This document shows positions 1 to 12,058 of a DNA stretch of 13,872 bases, one piece after another. The stretch is from JBFLXN01 sp040755715 [NCBI: Candidatus Edwardsbacteria bacterium]. GTDB taxonomy: Bacteria > Edwardsbacteria > AC1 > JBFLXN01. Location of the stretch: assembly GCA_040755715.1 (NCBI GenBank), contig JBFLXN010000061.1, forward strand, positions 1 through 13,872. Direction: 5' to 3'. The position numbers and the translations under genes were made by a program. Under the pieces are notes generated by a model that searched no databases, was not told the origin of the DNA, and worked only from the letters and a program-made list of their open reading frames with translations. Every line of letters begins with the position of its first letter. Position 1 is the stretch's first letter.

Positions 1-310
1 TGAGCCTGACATCCATTCCGTCTATCGTCCTGTTGGTGCCCTTGTAGACTATCTGCCAGCCTTTCTCTCCTACAATCTTCCGCTCAAACCGGCTGGCATT
101 GGTGACTCTGACACCGTCATCCCATCTCCTAACTGCTTCAACGGCGTTGGCGTCATTCGGATAGCCCCGATAGTAGGAAACAGGCCCACCCAAACTCATA
201 TCAGCCATGATGTAGCGAACCCGAGCCTCATCATAAGCTTCTGCTGAGGTGCTGAGGGCAAACAGTAGCCCTATGGACAGAAGAGCCAAAGATAGATTTT
301 TATGCTGCAT
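1..310 (-). CDS. Secreted protein of unknown function, N-terminal part only
   Basis: The gene reads from ATG at 310 leftwards and is still open at base 1, so only about 103 residues are visible. The start is supported by a strong Shine-Dalgarno (AAAGGAGG, five bases before ATG). Residues 1-25 form a typical Sec signal peptide: a short basic N-terminus (MQHKNLS), a hydrophobic core rich in Leu/Ala/Ile, and a small-residue cleavage region ending STSAEA before YDEARV. The mature part is polar and contains an Asn/Asp-rich stretch, then RWDDGVRV and GWQIVYKG. I do not recognise a family. Export to periplasm or surface is inferred from the signal peptide; function cannot be stated. Confidence 0.75.
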   Translation of the reverse strand, partial: MQHKNLSLALLSIGLLFALSTSAEAYDEARVRYIMADMSLGGPVSYYRGYPNDANAVEAVRRWDDGVRVTNASRFERKIVGEKGWQIVYKGTNRTIDGMDVRL

Positions 311-340
311 GGTTTCCTCCTTTCTTTTTGGGCAGAAGAC

Positions 341-473
341 TTCTGCAAAATGCCTGTTAAGTGTCATGGCGAGGAGCAAAGCGACGAAGCAATCTCTTTA
401 TTTACCATGAGTTGGGATTGCTTCGTCCCGATAAATCGGGACTCGCAATGACAAATTATCTCATTTTGCAGAA
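341..473. repeat. 133-bp palindromic element (MITE/REP-like)
   Basis: Three nested inverted arm pairs are visible. The outer 12-bp arms TTCTGCAAAATG (341-352) and CATTTTGCAGAA (462-473) are perfect. The next pair, GTCATGGCGAG (363-373) and CTCGCAATGAC (442-452), has one mismatch. The inner pair GACGAAGCAATC (383-394) and GATTGCTTCGTC (416-427) is perfect. The right half also holds a small hairpin, CCCGAT-AA-ATCGGG. The word GTCATTGCGAGGAGC..GCAATC is, from memory, a dispersed palindrome seen in many uncultured bacterial genomes. No coding capacity is credible; the open frame crossing it is an artefact of the palindrome. Confidence 0.7.
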
Positions 474-1599: not shown

Positions 1600-4065
1600 T
1601 CATCCGACCACAAAATTCACCAGTTTTTTGGGAACAAAGATTGCTTTTTTAATCTCCTTTCCAGCTAAATAACCTTTTACCTTTTCATTCTCCATCGTCT
1701 TTTTCTTGACTTCTTCTTCTCCTGTCTCTGCCGGAACAGAAACCCTGCCCCTTACCTTTCCGTTCACTTCAACTATATATGTTATTTCTTCTTCTTTCAA
1801 TACAGATTCGTCGCAAACCGGCCAGGAACTCTTAAATATACTCTCCCCAAATTCCATCTTCTGCCACAATTCCTCTCCTAAATGAGGAGCAAAAAGCGCT
1901 AAGAGTTTGATAAAATTGACCAGACAATACCGACCAAACGAATTGTTTAACTCAATCTTCTCCAAATCAGTCAAAATATCCATCAATTTGGCAATAATTG
2001 TGTTAAACTGCAAAGCCACAATATCTTGTTCAATATATTTAATGTATTTGTTTAACTTACGACATAGTCTTATTTGTTCCTCGTTAAGTTCTGATGTTTT
2101 TGGAAGTTGCGTTTCTTGAGTTAATGGATATTCTTTGATATTTTGGACTAAGTTGTATATTCTGTTAATAAACCTTGTAGTTCCAGTTGTGGACTCTTCG
2201 TTCCAGATAATTTCTCGTTCAGAAGGAGCAAAGAAGAACATAGCTAGTCTTGAGGCATCTACTCCGTTGTTTTCCATCAACTCTACTGGAGAAATGAGAT
2301 TTCCTTTGGATTTTGACATCACTTCACCATTTTTGTCCAAGACCATTCCATGATTAAAAAGATTGAAAGTGGGTTCATCTATTGGAAGATAACCAGCATC
2401 AAATAGAACCTTGGTAATGAATCTGAAATAAAGAAGATGTCCGCAGGCGTGTTCCACTCCTCCGATGTATAAATCTATAGGAAACCACTTTTTCACTTTA
2501 TCTTTGGAAAAAGGCTCACAATCATTATGAGCATCAGTATAGCGAAGAAAATACCAAGAAGAACAGACAAAGGTATCCATCGTGTCCGGGTCTCGCTGTG
2601 CCATATCTTGGCATTTGGAACATTTTGTCTCCGTGAATTCTTTAACATCCGCTAAAGGCGAACGCCCTTTGGGGATAAAGTCAATGTTCCCCTTGGGGAG
2701 AAGGACTGGAAGGTCTTTTTCTGGGACTGAAACGATCCCACACTTCTCGCAATGAATGATTGGTATAGGTGCACCCCAGTAGCGCTGGCGAGAGATTAAC
2801 CAATCTCTCAATTTGTAATTTACTTTTTCTCTGCCTCTCCCCTTTTCTATCACATAATCGGTTACTCTTTTAATTCCAATTTCCGAAGGAATTCCATCAA
2901 AGGAACCAGAGTTAACCATTGTTCCTGGCTCTGTATAGGCTTCTTTCATCTCTGATGGGTCAAGGTTTTGACCAGGCGGCTGAATGACTACCTTTATCGG
3001 GATATCATATCTTCTAGCAAACTCAAAATCTCTTTGGTCATGTCCAGGCACACCCATCACTACTCCAGTTCCGTAAGAAGCCAGAACATAATCAACCACC
3101 CAGAGCTGAACTCTTTCACGAGATAGTGGATTGATTGCATATTCACCGGTAAAGATGCCGTCTTTTTCAGTTACAGTAGAAACTCGCTCAATTTCTGTTT
3201 TTAGAATTGATTTTTCAATATACTTTAAAACTTCCTTCTCATATCTTGTCCCTTCAACTATTTTCTTTGCCAAAGGATTTTCTGGAGCAATAGCGATGAA
3301 GGTAACGCCATAGATAGTATCGGGTCGAGTAGTAAAAACTGACAGAAGTTTACCGGTTTTCTCCATACTAAAATCAATTTCAGTGCCAATACTTTTACCA
3401 ATCCAATTCTTTTGCATTGTCTTGACATTTTCCGGCCAGCCAGTTAATCGGTCAAGACTCTTAAGCAATCTCTCGGCATATTCAGTAATCTTAAAGAACC
3501 ACTGTTTAAGTGTCTTTTTGGTTACTTGAGAATGACAGCGCCAGCAAGTTCCCTGTTCAACCTGTTCGTTTGCCAGAACTGTCTTACATCCTGGGCACCA
3601 ATTGACTAAGGATTCACCCTGATAGGCCAAACCTCGTTCAAAGAGTTTCAAGAAAACCCACTGCGTCCATTTATAGTAATTCGGGAGGCAAGTAATTACC
3701 TCTCGATTCCAGTCATAACTAATGCCCATCTTTTTGAGAGTATTTCTTGATACTTCAATACATCCTAATGTCCATTTTTCTGGGTCAAGACTCCGGGTAA
3801 TGGCGGCTTCTTCGGCTGGAAGTCCAAAAGCATCCCAACCAATTGGATGAAGGATATCATAGCCTTGCATCATTTTATAACGGGCGATGACATCACCTAT
3901 GGCATAGTTGCGAAAATGTCCCATATGAATATCCCCAGAAGTATAAGCGAACATTTCCAGCATGTAAAATTTCTTTCTGGGATTTTCGTTAGTCTTGTAT
4001 AATCCGGTCTCTTCCCAGATTTTTTGCCACTTGGATTCTATTTCTTTAAAAGGATATTTCAGCAT
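1600..4065 (-). CDS. leuS: Leucyl-tRNA synthetase
   Basis: A complete 821-residue class Ia synthetase that charges tRNA-Leu in the cytoplasm. In order: the ATP-binding HIGH motif as HMGH (47-50); a zinc knuckle with CPGC (157-160) and CWRC (174-177); the CP1 editing domain at about 220-415 with TRPDT (246-250) and GHDQRDFEFA (341-350), whose Asp is expected to anchor the mischarged amino acid; a second Cys4 cluster, CEKC (439-442) with CSKC (482-485); the KMSKS loop as VMSKS (582-586); the anticodon-binding helical domain; and a C-terminal tRNA-binding domain with VNGKVRGRV. Length and order are those of bacterial LeuRS, slightly shorter than the roughly 860 residues of E. coli. Its first 20 bases overlap the end of nfo, so it is last in the holA operon and probably translationally coupled. 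No terminator is evident downstream. Confidence 0.97.
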   Translation of the reverse strand: MLKYPFKEIESKWQKIWEETGLYKTNENPRKKFYMLEMFAYTSGDIHMGHFRNYAIGDVIARYKMMQGYDILHPIGWDAFGLPAEEAAITRSLDPEKWTLGCIEVSRNTLKKMGISYDWNREVITCLPNYYKWTQWVFLKLFERGLAYQGESLVNWCPGCKTVLANEQVEQGTCWRCHSQVTKKTLKQWFFKITEYAERLLKSLDRLTGWPENVKTMQKNWIGKSIGTEIDFSMEKTGKLLSVFTTRPDTIYGVTFIAIAPENPLAKKIVEGTRYEKEVLKYIEKSILKTEIERVSTVTEKDGIFTGEYAINPLSRERVQLWVVDYVLASYGTGVVMGVPGHDQRDFEFARRYDIPIKVVIQPPGQNLDPSEMKEAYTEPGTMVNSGSFDGIPSEIGIKRVTDYVIEKGRGREKVNYKLRDWLISRQRYWGAPIPIIHCEKCGIVSVPEKDLPVLLPKGNIDFIPKGRSPLADVKEFTETKCSKCQDMAQRDPDTMDTFVCSSWYFLRYTDAHNDCEPFSKDKVKKWFPIDLYIGGVEHACGHLLYFRFITKVLFDAGYLPIDEPTFNLFNHGMVLDKNGEVMSKSKGNLISPVELMENNGVDASRLAMFFFAPSEREIIWNEESTTGTTRFINRIYNLVQNIKEYPLTQETQLPKTSELNEEQIRLCRKLNKYIKYIEQDIVALQFNTIIAKLMDILTDLEKIELNNSFGRYCLVNFIKLLALFAPHLGEELWQKMEFGESIFKSSWPVCDESVLKEEEITYIVEVNGKVRGRVSVPAETGEEEVKKKTMENEKVKGYLAGKEIKKAIFVPKKLVNFVVG

Positions 4066-6919: not shown

Positions 6920-6939
6920 ATTATCCCTGATAATGTCAA
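6912..6939 (-). promoter_or_regulatory. Possible hybrid promoter reading out of the nested IS towards holA
   Basis: On the minus strand a perfect TTGACA (6939-6934) lies inside the IS terminal repeat. After 16 bp comes TATACC (6917-6912) in the flanking DNA. Transcription would start near 6905 and reach holA after about 250 bp. The -10 is imperfect, so activity is uncertain. Confidence 0.35.
6920..6928. repeat. 9-bp target site duplication of the nested IS, left copy
   Basis: ATTATCCCT, identical to 8676-8684 on the other side of the element. This defines the insertion boundaries. Confidence 0.85.
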
Positions 6940-7102
6940 AAGTTCTATGAAAGAAAATGAAAGATAAAATGCAATACGAAGCAGGATAAAAGGCTGGAAA
7001 AATAGAAGAACAAGAGATTTAAAGAGCAGGAAAAGTATAGAAAAAGTAAAAAAGGCAAAAAGAGTTAGTTAAGGAAAAGGTCTTTGAAATAGTTAAGTAA
7101 GT

Positions 7103-8553
7103 TTAAGCGGCTAGGGAGAGAATTTTAGCCCACTTACCTTGAATGGTGGAAATATTCTGAAGTTCTTTAAGAGGGATTGGGACATTGTAGTTGAGAGACA
7201 TGTGAGGTCTTAAGAAATTGTAGTGTGTAACAAAGAGAATGATAAGAGCGAGAGCACCATTAAAGGAATTAAAACCAGCAGCAGGTCTGAGATGGTGTTT
7301 AAAAGTGCGAATAACTCTTTCTACGAGTTGTTTGAAAGGTCTGAATTCAGCAGATTCAGAATCAAGGTTTTGTAATCCAATGACTTTTTTGAGAGAGAGT
7401 TTATTGGCAGGACGGGATTGATTAATAAAATGGATACCTGCCGGAGAGGAAGGATTGCCATCAGTGATAAGAGTAATTTGTTGGTCATCTTTAGCGGTAC
7501 GAATAGCTTCGTTCATAGCAATGATAGCGGGTTGAGTCTCTCTGGAGTCAGCGAGATGGTAAGAGGAGATTTTACGAGATTTAGAAGAAATAAAGAGAAA
7601 AGAATAAAATTGTTTGCCTAGGATTTTAATATAAGCTTCGTCACCGGCAGAGATATCATCAATAGGGCCTTTGTTTTTAAGATTAAAGTTATGGCAATAA
7701 TAAGCAGCCGAAGAGGCATAATTTAAGATAGTTTTGTGAGAGACCCTGATATTGAAAATCATATACAAAATAAGTGCAGTTTTACGGGCTGAGAGTGCAA
7801 AAGAGACGTAGAAAGAAAGAATAAGACCAATGGTCTTAATAGAGTGGTAAGATTTAGCAAGGTTAATAGATGGTTTATCAGGAGAAGAAAGTTTTAATGG
7901 TGAAGGTTGATAAAGATATTCACGGAATTGATAGTTAAGTTTAAATTGAGAAAGGAGTTTGGTTTTAATAAATTTTTCTAAAGGATTAAGTTTGCTTAAA
8001 GCGGATAAACGATGTTGGCAGTTATCGTTACAGCATTTATGAATAATAAGGTCTTTAAAATGTTTCCAGACGAATAAAGCGTTGTGGCAATAAGGACAGA
8101 AGAATTTTGATTTTAAAGAAGTTTTTTTAGCTTGTTGAAAAAGGTTAGAACAGACTTTGCCTCTAATTTGGGATCTTTTAGAGCCGTCGTTGAAATAGAG
8201 ATATTTGCTTGGAGCGTGGCATAAGGGACAATAAACATTTTCGGTTACATAAAGAGATTTATCACGGTGATTAACAGGTTTAAGGGGTTTGCCGTGAGTA
8301 TGACAGTATTGTTTTAAGAGTTCTTTGAAGTTTTTTTTTGAGATTCTTCGGGTTTTTGAGTTAAAGGCGGATTAGGCTCAAGATAAAAGTTTCTATAGTT
8401 AGGATGTTTTTCCTTAAAATCGTCTTTAGGTTTAATGTTAGGATCGCGATTAGCAATAATATCTGAAAGTTCTTTTATGATCATAATAATTTGTTCGCGA
8501 GTAAATTTGGAGCATATCCAAATAACAAAACGTGAAACTTTGGTCATGGACAT
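7103..8553 (-). CDS. Zinc-ribbon DDE transposase made by -1 ribosomal frameshift
   Basis: Two overlapping frames are open without interruption across this span. Reading 74 residues from ATG 8553, slipping back one base on the A9 run at 8339-8331, and continuing to TAA at 7103 gives 483 residues. The start has a perfect AAGGAGG seven bases upstream. The N-terminal part (1-74) looks DNA-binding or regulatory. After the slip come cysteine pairs Cys109/Cys112 with Cys135, and Cys153/Cys156 with Cys174/Cys175/Cys179, i.e. zinc-ribbon modules (CPLC, CPYC). The catalytic domain follows, with Asp305 (GDEAYIK), Asp365 (LITDGNPS) and Glu412 (QLVERVIRTFK), then THYNFLRPHMSLN typical of IS6/IS240-like transposases. 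The second frame has no ATG, GTG or TTG for its first 188 codons, so it cannot easily be made except by frameshifting. Confidence 0.8.
8314..8553 (-). CDS. Unshifted OrfA product of the nested IS
   Basis: Without frameshifting, translation from ATG 8553 stops at TAA 8314 after 79 residues. The protein is basic with a helical segment (FTREQIIMIIKELSDII), then a Pro/Lys-rich tail. In IS1 and IS3 elements the equivalent short product binds the terminal repeats and represses transposition; a similar role here is inference from layout only. An in-frame ATG at 8616 was not chosen because it would translate through the ribosome-binding site and promoter. Confidence 0.65.
   Translation of the reverse strand: MSMTKVSRFVIWICSKFTREQIIMIIKELSDIIANRDPNIKPKDDFKEKHPNYRNFYLEPNPPLTQKPEESQKKTSKNS
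8331..8340 (-). promoter_or_regulatory. Slippery A9 site for -1 frameshifting
   Basis: The minus-strand run C-AAAAAAAAA-C contains the heptamer A_AAA_AAA in the OrfA frame. Slipping one base back puts the ribosome in the long transposase frame. OrfA terminates 15 bases past the run, as in other IS frameshift windows. Confidence 0.75.
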
Positions 8554-8586
8554 AAAATAACCTCCTTTATAGTGAATAACACTACA

Positions 8587-8616
8587 ATAATAAGGGGGGA
8601 GGGAGATAAAAATCAA
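8587..8616 (-). promoter_or_regulatory. Transposase promoter of the nested IS
   Basis: On the minus strand TTGATT (8616-8611), an 18-bp spacer containing a C-rich run, and TATTAT (8592-8587). The predicted start near 8580 gives a short leader that contains the small inverted repeat TAGTG-TTATT-CACTA just before the ribosome-binding site. Confidence 0.5.
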
Positions 8617-8637
8617 TAAAAATATTAAAAATAAAGA

Positions 8638-8661
8638 TTTTTAGGTAAAAATACCTAAAAA
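8638..8661. repeat. Perfect hairpin just inside the right end of the nested IS
   Basis: TTTTTAGGTA and TACCTAAAAA form 10-bp arms around AAAA, directly abutting the right terminal repeat. It may shield the transposase from outside transcription or be a protein-binding site. Confidence 0.6.
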
Positions 8662-8675
8662 ACTTTTGACATTAC

Positions 8676-8684
8676 ATTATCCCT
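8676..8684. repeat. 9-bp target site duplication of the nested IS, right copy
   Basis: ATTATCCCT, identical to 6920-6928. Confidence 0.85.
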
Positions 8685-8700: not shown

Positions 8701-9641
8701 ATGGAAGGCACAACTCAGGTAAGCGGAGAGAAACCGGTAGAAGTTGGGGGCAGTGGAGTGGTCAGCCTAATTCGTAAAGTAAATCGGGTGACCCAACGCA
8801 AGTTCAGTGCAGAAGACAAAATCAGGATAGTGCTGGAAGGATTTCGTAAGGAAATACCCGTAACTGACTTATGTCGCCGGGAACGGATAGGCAGTGCAGT
8901 CTATTATTCCTGGTTAAAACAGTTTATGGAGGGTGGTAAAGCCAGACTCAGAGGAGACACCTTAAGGGAAGCAACCAAAGAGGAAGTAGATAGGTTAAAA
9001 CAAGAAACCAGCCAGTGGTTTATCGTCTACTGAAGAAAGCCAGGTTGACTGAGCCGAGGGCTTTGGTAGAAATGGCGGTAGCAAAGGAATGGCGGTATAA
9101 GACAGTTGGTTGTGATGAAATCTGGCAGAGCGATGCGACGAACTATTTTGTGGTTGGTTGGGGGTATTACAAACAGATTACAGTTCAAGATGATTATTCA
9201 AGGTATCCTTCGGCTGGGATTTAAGGCCTGATGAGACGGCCTTTAGTTTTAGTGATGTGGTGGAGCAGGCGATAGAACATGCGTGTGGGAAAGGACATCT
9301 AAAAGACGGGGAAAGGGCCTCGATTGCTTTCTGATAACGGTTCAGGGTTCACTGGTGAGGTTATGGCTAATTATCTGAAAGTTCACGGGATAAAACATAT
9401 TTTGGGTCGGCCGTATCATCCTCAGATTCAGGGTAAGATAGAGCGATTTCATCGGAGTATAAAAGAGAAGGTGTGTTTATTGGTTTACTGTTCGCCGGAA
9501 GAGCTGAAGAAAGGAATAGATGAGGCGATAGCTACCTACCGGCTTACTCCACATAAATCCTTGGATAATGTTAGTCCAAGGGATGTCTATGAAGGGAAAA
9601 GAGAAGAGAACCTGAAAAGAGAGAAGAGACAAAGAGGTTGA
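8701..9641 (+). pseudogene. IS3-family-like transposase, deleted and frameshifted
   Basis: The first segment (8701-9033, preceded by GAAGGAGGG) is an OrfA-type protein: an HTH_Tnp-like domain (RKFSAEDKIRIVLEGF..LCRRERIGSAVYYSWLKQF) and the start of a coiled coil (EEVDRLKQE). It is then joined out of frame to the middle of OrfB (VYRLLKKARL, from about 9015), so the intervening part of the protein is missing. The rve catalytic core follows: first Asp in WQSDATN, second in LLSDNGSG, Glu in KIERFHR, with exactly 35 residues between the last two (D-x35-E). A one-base loss near 9205-9215 and a one-base gain near 9300-9318 break the frame; the middle piece (WDLRPDETAFSFSDVV) is readable in another frame. 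The last segment ends at TGA 9641. It cannot make active transposase. Confidence 0.85.
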
Positions 9642-10266: not shown

Positions 10267-10412
10267 CTACGGATAAACCCAACTTCCAATCTATCGCAAT
10301 ACAATCATCTTCTTTGTATCTGCGAAATCACCTGCAGTTAGTCTATAGAAATACACGCCTGCCGACACCTGTTTGCCACTTTCATCTCTGCTATCCCATA
10401 CCACCGACCTCA

Positions 10413-10475
10413 CCCTTCCCTCCCCTTGTCCCGCCAGAGCGGGATCCCGCATTTGCGGTGAAGGGGAGGGAAGGG
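10413..10475. repeat. 63-bp compound palindrome inserted in the sorting domain
   Basis: Perfect 15-bp arms CCCTTCCCTCCCCTT (10413-10427) and its inverse (10461-10475) enclose two hairpins, CCCGC-CAGA-GCGGG and CCGC-ATTT-GCGG. The plan matches the unit at 9952-10000. It separates LVNE from RSVVWDSRDESG, which are normally only a few residues apart, and shifts the frame into a stop. Confidence 0.75.
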
Positions 10476-10546
10476 AGGGGTTATCTCATTGACTAATGTC
10501 TTCACCAGCTGCCCCGCCACATTGTAGACCTTCAGAGTAGTGTGGC

Positions 10547-10595
10547 TAATGGCTGATAGCTCATGGCTGATAGCGGACAGCGAATAGCGAATAGC
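10547..10595. repeat. Heptanucleotide tandem repeat, seven units
   Basis: Seven consecutive 7-mers ending in GC: TAATGGC TGATAGC TCATGGC TGATAGC GGACAGC GAATAGC GAATAGC. They lie inside the sorting-domain coding region and encode LSAISHE-LSAISHT-like residues. Confidence 0.75.
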
Positions 10596-10630
10596 GGTTT
10601 GTGAAGTGAAGGGATTCGGCTGATTCTGGA

Positions 10631-10665
10631 ATAAGCGTATAGCGTCAGGCGCCCAGCGTTTAGCG
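10631..10665. repeat. Heptanucleotide tandem repeat, five units
   Basis: Five 7-mers ending in GCG: ATAAGCG TATAGCG TCAGGCG CCCAGCG TTTAGCG, just upstream of the sorting domain. They code for KRWAPDAIRL on the minus strand. Confidence 0.6.
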
Positions 10666-12058
10666 GAAGTTTCCTCCACCCCCGGTCCCGGGCCTGTATA
10701 TTTACAAACTGACCGGACCAGAAGAACCCGACATCATTACTTCGTCTTTTCCATCCCCATTTACATCGCCTGCACAACAAACCCTATAGGCACATCCCGC
10801 AAGCCAGCCATCCTCAATCGTATCCATAATTGCGCTTCCAAGCCAGAGATAATCCACTCCTTTAGAAACTGAAGCAGGAATTGAATCACCACGGGCAGTG
10901 GACATAAACTCCCCATAATTATTGCTGTCTGCCTCACCAACTCCAGATGACCAATAACCTAAAGAACTTGAGTCTGTTTTGCCAACCATCCACACATCAA
11001 CAACGCTATCCATCGGGGAACCACCGTAAAAGACATATACTTTGCCCCCATATCTTCCACTAGGATAATACTCACTTCCAGTAACTACACGGTCATAATC
11101 TATTTTATTTTTGAAAAAAGAAACATTGTAGAAACCCAATCATTGACTTGCTACTTCCCCACATTTTGCCATATCATAGATTGTGTCCATTGGTGAGCCG
11201 CCATAATAGACATAGACCCTACCAGCCATGAAAGGTGCAATTGTCCCATCTCCATAACCCCAAGCTCCTATTACTATATCCTGAAAGCCATCCTTATTCA
11301 CATCACCACCAGAACCAACGCTGATTCCGAACGCCTCCCCGCTATCCCCGTGACCGCCAGACAAAATTACATCAGGAATGGTATCAAATGGACTACCATC
11401 ATAGTAGATAAAAACTGTTCCATTTACTGCCAGGGTTCAAGTAGTCTCCTGTAATCAAGTCTACTGTATCGTCAAGCATTGACATCTCCGCAAGCCAGTG
11501 CTAAACTTATTCTCGGAAGACTATCGTCTGGAAGACTATCCATCGGATTGCTACCATAATATATGAGTATATTGGGAATAGTTGCCCTCCCAGATACTAC
11601 TACATCTGAAAATCCATCACCATTCAAATCACCCTCTGCTATCCATCTGCCACCTGCACCCGGCTGTGCAGAGTCATACAATATTAAATCGGGTATGCTA
11701 TCTATTCCTCCAAGACCACCATAATATAAATACACTTTGGTTGCAATATCCTGTTGCGCCTTAACTCTATGTCCCAAAACGGTTACATCATCGTAGCCAT
11801 CTCCGTTCACATCACCAACTCCCCCAATCGCCATGCCAAAACTACTAATGCTGTCTTCAGGCGCCCCAGTCTTGAAGATTATCTGCAGATTATAGGTAGT
11901 CTGGGCGAAACAACAAGGTAGAAGGGAGAAGAGAAAAGGGAGAATGGAAAGCCCAAAGATAAGAAGTTTTTTCATAATTGGCTCCAATTTGGCATTTCGG
12001 TAATTGCCAAAGTGCCAAAGGGAAAAAAAGGACAAGATGAATTGCAACCGCTACTATA

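Follow-up and report, generated by a model that had tools for sequence, protein, structure and literature searches.

An IS6-type insertion sequence with a two-frame transposase gene in a contig of Candidatus Edwardsbacteria

The window, that is, the whole stretch of 13,872 nt analysed here, carries a complete insertion sequence (IS) at 6929-8676 on the minus strand, which we regard with high confidence as IS6-type. The element is genuine and of a known kind, though one of its traits is a variant. On present evidence it is not a new family; it probably belongs with the long zinc-ribbon branch of IS6 (clade i/VIII-like), a placement made by described features rather than by alignment. Its transposase is encoded by two overlapping minus-strand ORFs, with a -1 shift at a run of nine A (A9) in the linker that leads from the N-terminal domain to the zinc ribbons. 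The frameshift at this linker and the absence of GG tips are departures from the published descriptions of IS6. Taken as a whole, the data are likely to be explained by a clade i/VIII-like IS6 element that inserted with an 8-bp stagger and would produce a 483-aa fusion transposase by -1 slippage.

The transposase gene and its reading frames

The coding features of the element are listed below, where P0001 is the protein of the ORF2 frame (421 residues) and A1 is an alignment of nine rows.

8314..8553, minus strand: OrfA, N-terminal domain and linker; ATG at 8553, TAA at 8314; conserved in relatives
8331..8339, minus strand: A9 run where -1 slippage is presumed; OrfA frame CAA AAA AAA ACT
7103..8338, minus strand: ORF2, the -1 frame that starts at the A-run, ends at the stop codon and encodes the zinc ribbons and DDE core; upper limit approximate
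8150..8230, minus strand: zinc ribbon 1 (P0001 residues 47-73); one Cys changed to Gly
8018..8098, minus strand: zinc ribbon 2 (P0001 residues 91-117); all four Cys kept
7640..7642, minus strand: catalytic D1 (P0001 D243)
7460..7462, minus strand: catalytic D2 (P0001 D303)
7319..7321, minus strand: catalytic E (P0001 E350), with K357 seven residues on

D243, D303, E350 and K357 are all invariant in A1. Both ORFs stay open throughout except for the frameshift, and the fused OrfA and ORF2 product has 483 aa; the length and the -1 relation of the overlapping ORFs, joined at the A9 run, agree with what the first-pass annotation had reported. Its two zinc ribbons hold in part: ribbon 2 retains four Cys, and ribbon 1 is incomplete, with Gly at P0001 residue 70, where six of the seven other A1 rows covering that column have Cys. 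The N-terminal domain is conserved across the window group (RFVIWICSKF...KPKDDFKEKHPNYRNF) and has no match in Pfam or NCBIfam; judged by eye, Bacillota proteins carry a looser counterpart of it. A search of solved structures gave only two rows (E 0.53 and 0.57), which we regard as chance, and the predicted structure of a relative (L002) was unusably poor, with a mean pLDDT of 49.4.

The linker could be read in 20 elements (the window element, L001, L002, L004, L006, L007, L022-L025, L031-L035, L038-L040, L069 and L070); L003, L005, L008-L010, L026, L041-L043, L046, L047, L071 and other short or weak matches lack the region and were left out of this count. A -1 shift at the linker is required in four of the 20, namely the window element, L038, L040 and L039. 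The site is A9C in the window element, A8G in L038 and L040, where TAG follows in the first frame, and A9T in L039, which has a second, opposite shift soon afterwards, an in-frame stop and further damage. L038 has no recognisable left end; at its positions 1-411 (reverse complement) the left end is missing, and the DNA upstream resembles, by eye, part of another transposase.

The shift might instead be an ordinary homopolymer indel or an assembly error, in a copy that is dead or has moved only in trans, which would leave the IS6-type identity unaffected. The remaining 16 of the 20 elements pass the linker in one frame, stops or shifts occur elsewhere in several copies, and the window copy has lost a zinc-ribbon Cys, all of which favour such decay. 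Moreover, at this composition an A9 run is by itself nothing unusual (one appeared in 621 of 2000 sequences simulated to first order from the window gene), so that decay or assembly error keeps an appreciable, though minor, share of the probability for the window copy. The coding A-runs of at least eight in ten scanned copies, all six of which lie at or beside a frame transition (five -1, one +1), also speak for decay; two of the six shifts, in L004 and L006, fall elsewhere in the gene and not at the linker. The coincidence of A-runs and frame transitions suits slippage and indel-prone runs alike. Transitions at A7-A9 runs were seen between the zinc ribbons in L004 (-1, about 574-583), after the zinc ribbons in L007 (-1, about 880-890) and in the catalytic part of L006 (+1, about 3635-3645).

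Against decay stand the otherwise open frames of the window element and the shift of L038, L040 and L039 at the same linker and in the same direction. L038 and L040 have the A8G site in common. Comparison of 339 of their codons gives 70% protein identity, pN 0.19 and a pS of 0.73 that is near saturation; in L040, a gap of N immediately after the A8G site hides its downstream frame relation. The shared site and the purifying selection on the downstream frame argue for programmed slippage in this lineage. Slippage is the better reading there because such constraint would not be expected had the common ancestor been inactivated by the shift. A stem after the A9 run of the window is not beyond chance (21 of 200 shuffles fold as well), and the corresponding numbers are 9 of 200 for L038 and 200 of 200 for the short stretch before the gap of L040. 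For the lineage of the window copy itself, we lean towards programmed slippage as the somewhat more probable reading. Whether the pattern extends further is a more tentative matter: lineages of long IS6-type elements in uncultured phyla may combine a separate N-terminal protein, and its fusion by programmed -1 slippage at an A-run, with the loss of GG tips, a proposal that we put at slightly under even chances.

The IS1 family has a 9-bp duplication and a -1 frameshift that joins two ORFs. The layout of the window element resembles the OrfA/OrfAB arrangement of IS1 and IS3, with their -1 slippage at A_AAA_AAG or A_AAA_AAA as given in the available parts of two sources (PMC4066793, PMC5009743); unlike the window element, these families have different transposase profiles, and the upstream ORF of the window has no DNA-binding domain recognised in Pfam. 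Slippage at nine A is likewise on record in IS genes (PMC1088944). According to the accessible text of a 2016 review, the frameshifting families are IS1, IS3, IS5 and IS630 (PMC5009743), and a 2021 review, in the part available, considers the biological relevance of the few apparent IS6 frameshifts unclear (PMC7986276). Among the papers found in a literature search on IS elements with programmed frameshifting or slippage, none reports it in its title or abstract for this IS6 branch.

Under the slippage reading, the element would make its active transposase in vivo as the 483-aa fusion, through -1 slippage on the A9 run by the ribosome (at A_AAA_AAA) or by an RNA polymerase that adds an A. By analogy with IS1 and IS3, OrfA alone may be the commoner product, non-catalytic and perhaps inhibitory. 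If this is true, slippage control in the style of IS1 and IS3 operates inside IS6-type elements, and the window element offers a testable case of frameshift control in them.

Family placement and distribution

P0001 scores 33.5 bits against DDE_Tnp_IS240 (PF13610; cut-off 27) and 34.6 bits against rve_3 (cut-off 26.5), and its best NCBIfam match is the IS6 model (E 3.7e-21). The IS6/IS240-looking DDE core and the distance of about 46 residues between the last two catalytic residues, both noted at first pass, are thus borne out. Of the two profiles suggested then for comparison, DDE_Tnp_IS240 is the one above cut-off; for IS1, neither Pfam nor NCBIfam gave a model that matched this protein up to E 10, and membership of IS1 was rejected. 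In profile comparisons, IS26 aligned with a probability of 96.6% over the DDE core and the region before it, and a zinc-ribbon IS6 element of Cetobacterium with 99.4% over 317 columns, zinc ribbons included.

The long zinc-ribbon branch has been described twice. Clade i of Varani et al. (2021) comprises, in the part of the review available, three elements of 1710-1760 bp with a zinc finger and a supplementary N-terminal extension, and stays inside IS6 in the ISfinder clustering (PMC7986276). The same three elements form clade VIII of Harmer and Hall (2019), where the accessible text gives transposases of 453-454 aa and 8-bp duplications on record for ISHahy6 and ISTet2, with none for ISHco2, and proposes the removal of the clade from IS6 (PMC6807381). 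By their descriptions, ISTet2 (1761 bp), ISHahy6 (1713 bp) and ISHco2 (1727 bp) resemble the window element in size and in having a zinc finger and a further N-terminal domain before an IS6-type DDE core. The window element has the same parts in 1748 bp, with one Cys missing from ribbon 1 and the parts in two frames. Compared by description, the published members, from Halanaerobia and Thermoanaerobacter, have a single-ORF transposase for which the available text mentions no frameshift, whereas that of the window element is split.

Clade h/VII, represented here by the Cetobacterium element, has the zinc finger without the extra N-terminal domain. The 317 columns aligned with the window protein take in its zinc ribbons, HTH region and DDE core; unlike the window element, it is 1271 bp long, encodes 341 aa, has 33 residues between D2 and E and passes the IS6 cut-off. 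The classical elements IS26, IS257 and ISS1 share with the window the DDE core, 8-bp duplications and the TGT...CAAA end motif as published, and differ from it in lacking a zinc ribbon, having GG tips and forming a separate clade.

A separate, undescribed family outside IS6 is an unlikely alternative, although several measures would fit it. The window protein reaches 75.8 bits of the 125 set as the NCBIfam IS6 equivalog cut-off, which L002, L038, L031, L033 and L034 also miss (73.9-82.9 bits), whereas the controls pass (IS26 278.2, IS257 242.8 and the Cetobacterium element 145.9 bits). The D2-E gap is 46 residues in the window element (D303 to E350), 44 in L031 and L033, 47 in L002 and 48 in L038, compared with gaps of 34 (IS26) and 33 (Cetobacterium element). 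The branch to IS26, IS257 and ISS1 is long, and the removal of clade VIII proposed by Harmer and Hall would point the same way. On the other side, the best profile matches are IS6/IS240 models, the Cetobacterium element aligns through its zinc ribbons, ISfinder keeps clade i in the family, and the duplications and internal end motif are IS6-like. The first-pass annotation had held that the mix of traits fitted no one family and was possibly new. That view is unsupported, since architecture, length and 8-bp duplication match published clade i/VIII, and comparison of homologues reveals full-length protein relatives with like ends and 8-bp repeats.

Relatives of the IS6-type element were found in a range of genomes. 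A scan of genome contigs yielded 10 loci out of 20 pattern matches, with record titles naming Deltaproteobacteria, a proteobacterium, Thermodesulfobacteriota, Omnitrophota, Elusimicrobia, Caldisericaceae and Nitrospirae. In searches of sampled genomes (E up to 0.001; samples partly overlapping, many matches short or weak), matches occurred in 17 of 395 genomes of one phylum (10 of 198 and 11 of 198 in earlier samples of that phylum), in 9 of 384 (earlier 9 of 237), 8 of 198, 1 of 40 and 1 of 11 genomes of further samples, and in 8 of 292 when L038 served as query. Among 72,556 plasmid records 17 matched, of which 10 covered 80% of the query or more, chiefly from lactobacilli and Geobacillus. 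Phages gave nothing at E 1e-5 and viral contigs no protein relative; the right-end DNA pattern occurs in three viral-contig stretches, with no transposase seen in up to 900 bases upstream. The branch published from three elements of Halanaerobia and Thermoanaerobacter now also takes in Bacillota plasmids and a number of uncultured phyla.

In a tree of 25 rows, from which a short Rhizobium row had been dropped, 21 rows including the window form one side of a split supported at 100/100, with IS26, IS257, ISS1 and the Cetobacterium element on the other. An uncultured group of 15 has support of 91/99, and the nearest neighbour of the window element is not settled.

Ends and target duplication

The extent of the element and its target duplication are as follows.

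6929..8676, minus strand: whole insertion sequence, 1748 bp; register from homologous ends and the 8-bp repeats of relatives
6921..6928, no strand: target duplication TTATCCCT, low-coordinate copy
8677..8684, no strand: target duplication TTATCCCT, high-coordinate copy
8661..8676, minus strand: left end (transposase 5' side), TGTAATGTCAAAAGTT on the minus strand; 14 of 16 positions match the other end
6929..6944, plus strand: right end (transposase 3' side), GATAATGTCAAAAGTT on the plus strand, then CTATGAAAG

Both ends are present, and none of 300 first-order Markov shuffles of the flanks gave an end pair matching at 14 or more of 16 positions with an adjoining exact 8-bp repeat, in agreement with the earlier view of a complete IS. 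The ends had been set by 14-base terminal repeats. This inverted repeat is indeed perfect (6931-6944/8661-8674) and sits two bases inside the true ends, which by homology read GATAATG and TGTAATG; the span, previously 6929-8675 (1747 bp), is corrected accordingly. In the 8-bp register the tips are TG and GA and not the GG of IS6, and TGTCAAAAG at both ends corresponds to the internal TGT...CAAA motif published for IS6. Left ends of relatives read NGTAnTGTCAAAAG. Most of their right ends are G[AG]TAnTGTCAAAAGTT and continue into a conserved CTATGAAAA-like tail, though there are exceptions, and the CTATGAAAG tail of the window is found again in relatives. In one assembly, the right ends of L009 and L010 are identical as far as AATAGTG and diverge beyond it. 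The GC content of the element is 34%, versus 39% and 43% on its two sides in the rest of the window. An inverted repeat of 15 bp (93%), hairpin-like, lies at 8633-8666 and overlaps the left end.

The perfect 9-bp duplication reported at first pass is present as such, ATTATCCCT standing on both flanks, and is best read from the relatives as 8 bp. When both flanks of ten elements were checked, a full repeat was found in four (window, L031, L033 and L034) and was absent in five (L001, L007, L022, L039 and L032); L006 matches over the four bases that are all its contig holds. A fifth full repeat, that of L069, came from outside this check. In L033 and L069 the repeat is exactly 8 bp, the ninth base being excluded in both directions. 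In L031 and L034 the ninth base mismatches on the side where the window has its own, and the right end finishes in the same base that stands just outside the left repeat, which creates a one-base ambiguity on the side opposite to that of the window. The first base of 12 left ends of the window group is variable (C in seven, T in two, G in two and A in one) and therefore looks like part of the element. The left tip is AG in L069, and the Bacillota relatives L031-L034 have GG tips.

The 8-bp register is preferred because no single 9-bp register fits all repeats and an 8-bp one does. The target duplication of the window would therefore most likely be TTATCCCT, the ninth base matching by chance, and the 9-bp trait that had pointed away from IS6 would fall away. 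A true 9-bp duplication between ends differing by one base, an IS1-like trait, is very improbable and was rejected: the nine identical flanking bases, the IS1-like pairing of such a duplication with a -1 frameshift, the GGnnnTG tips that IS1-family elements have in common (a remark in the available text of PMC6807381) and the ninth base of L031 and L034, which matches once the right end is trimmed by one, are outweighed by the exact 8 bp of L033 and L069, the AG tip of the latter, the opposite side of the extra base in L031/L034, the element-like first base and the lack of any IS1 model match in Pfam or NCBIfam at E up to 10, so that the 8-bp register alone fits all full repeats.

For the 8-bp insertion preferred here, the DDE transposase would cut the 3' strands at both NGTAnTGTCAAAAG-type ends, and the cut ends would be joined to target DNA with an 8-bp stagger. 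On the model of IS26, this may proceed through copy-in or cointegrate formation followed by recombination. In IS6 models, intramolecular events account for the repeats missing in some copies.

Surroundings and start-site hairpin

A decayed IS3-type transposase lies in two pieces on the plus strand of the window at 8701-9641 (HTH_Tnp_1 at 8701-9033, rve_3 at 9324-9641). The IS6-type element precedes the first start codon of this gene by 24 bases, so the element may have landed in an older IS. Farther away, frames at 10410-12047 on the minus strand resemble, by eye, fragments of a secreted protein that has repeats and, at its C terminus, a domain of the sorting type. Promoter-like sites are no more frequent than chance would give (8 versus 5.5 expected).

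In some relatives, the start of the transposase gene is covered by an inverted repeat of 11-14 bp, which spans the ribosome-binding site and reaches up to or near the start codon:

L001, 2701-2779
L002, 206-284
L007, 230-308
L022, 2958-3036
L023, 2775-2853

A hairpin burying the ribosome-binding site and start codon as in these five, out of 15 elements, was equalled by none of 100 controls; the number rises to 3 of 100 in L004 and 81 of 100 in the window element, where the hairpin is weak or absent. Pooled covariation is weak, with three pairs changed on both sides, a level reached by 32 of 500 shuffles. Such a hairpin could block translation from read-through transcripts.
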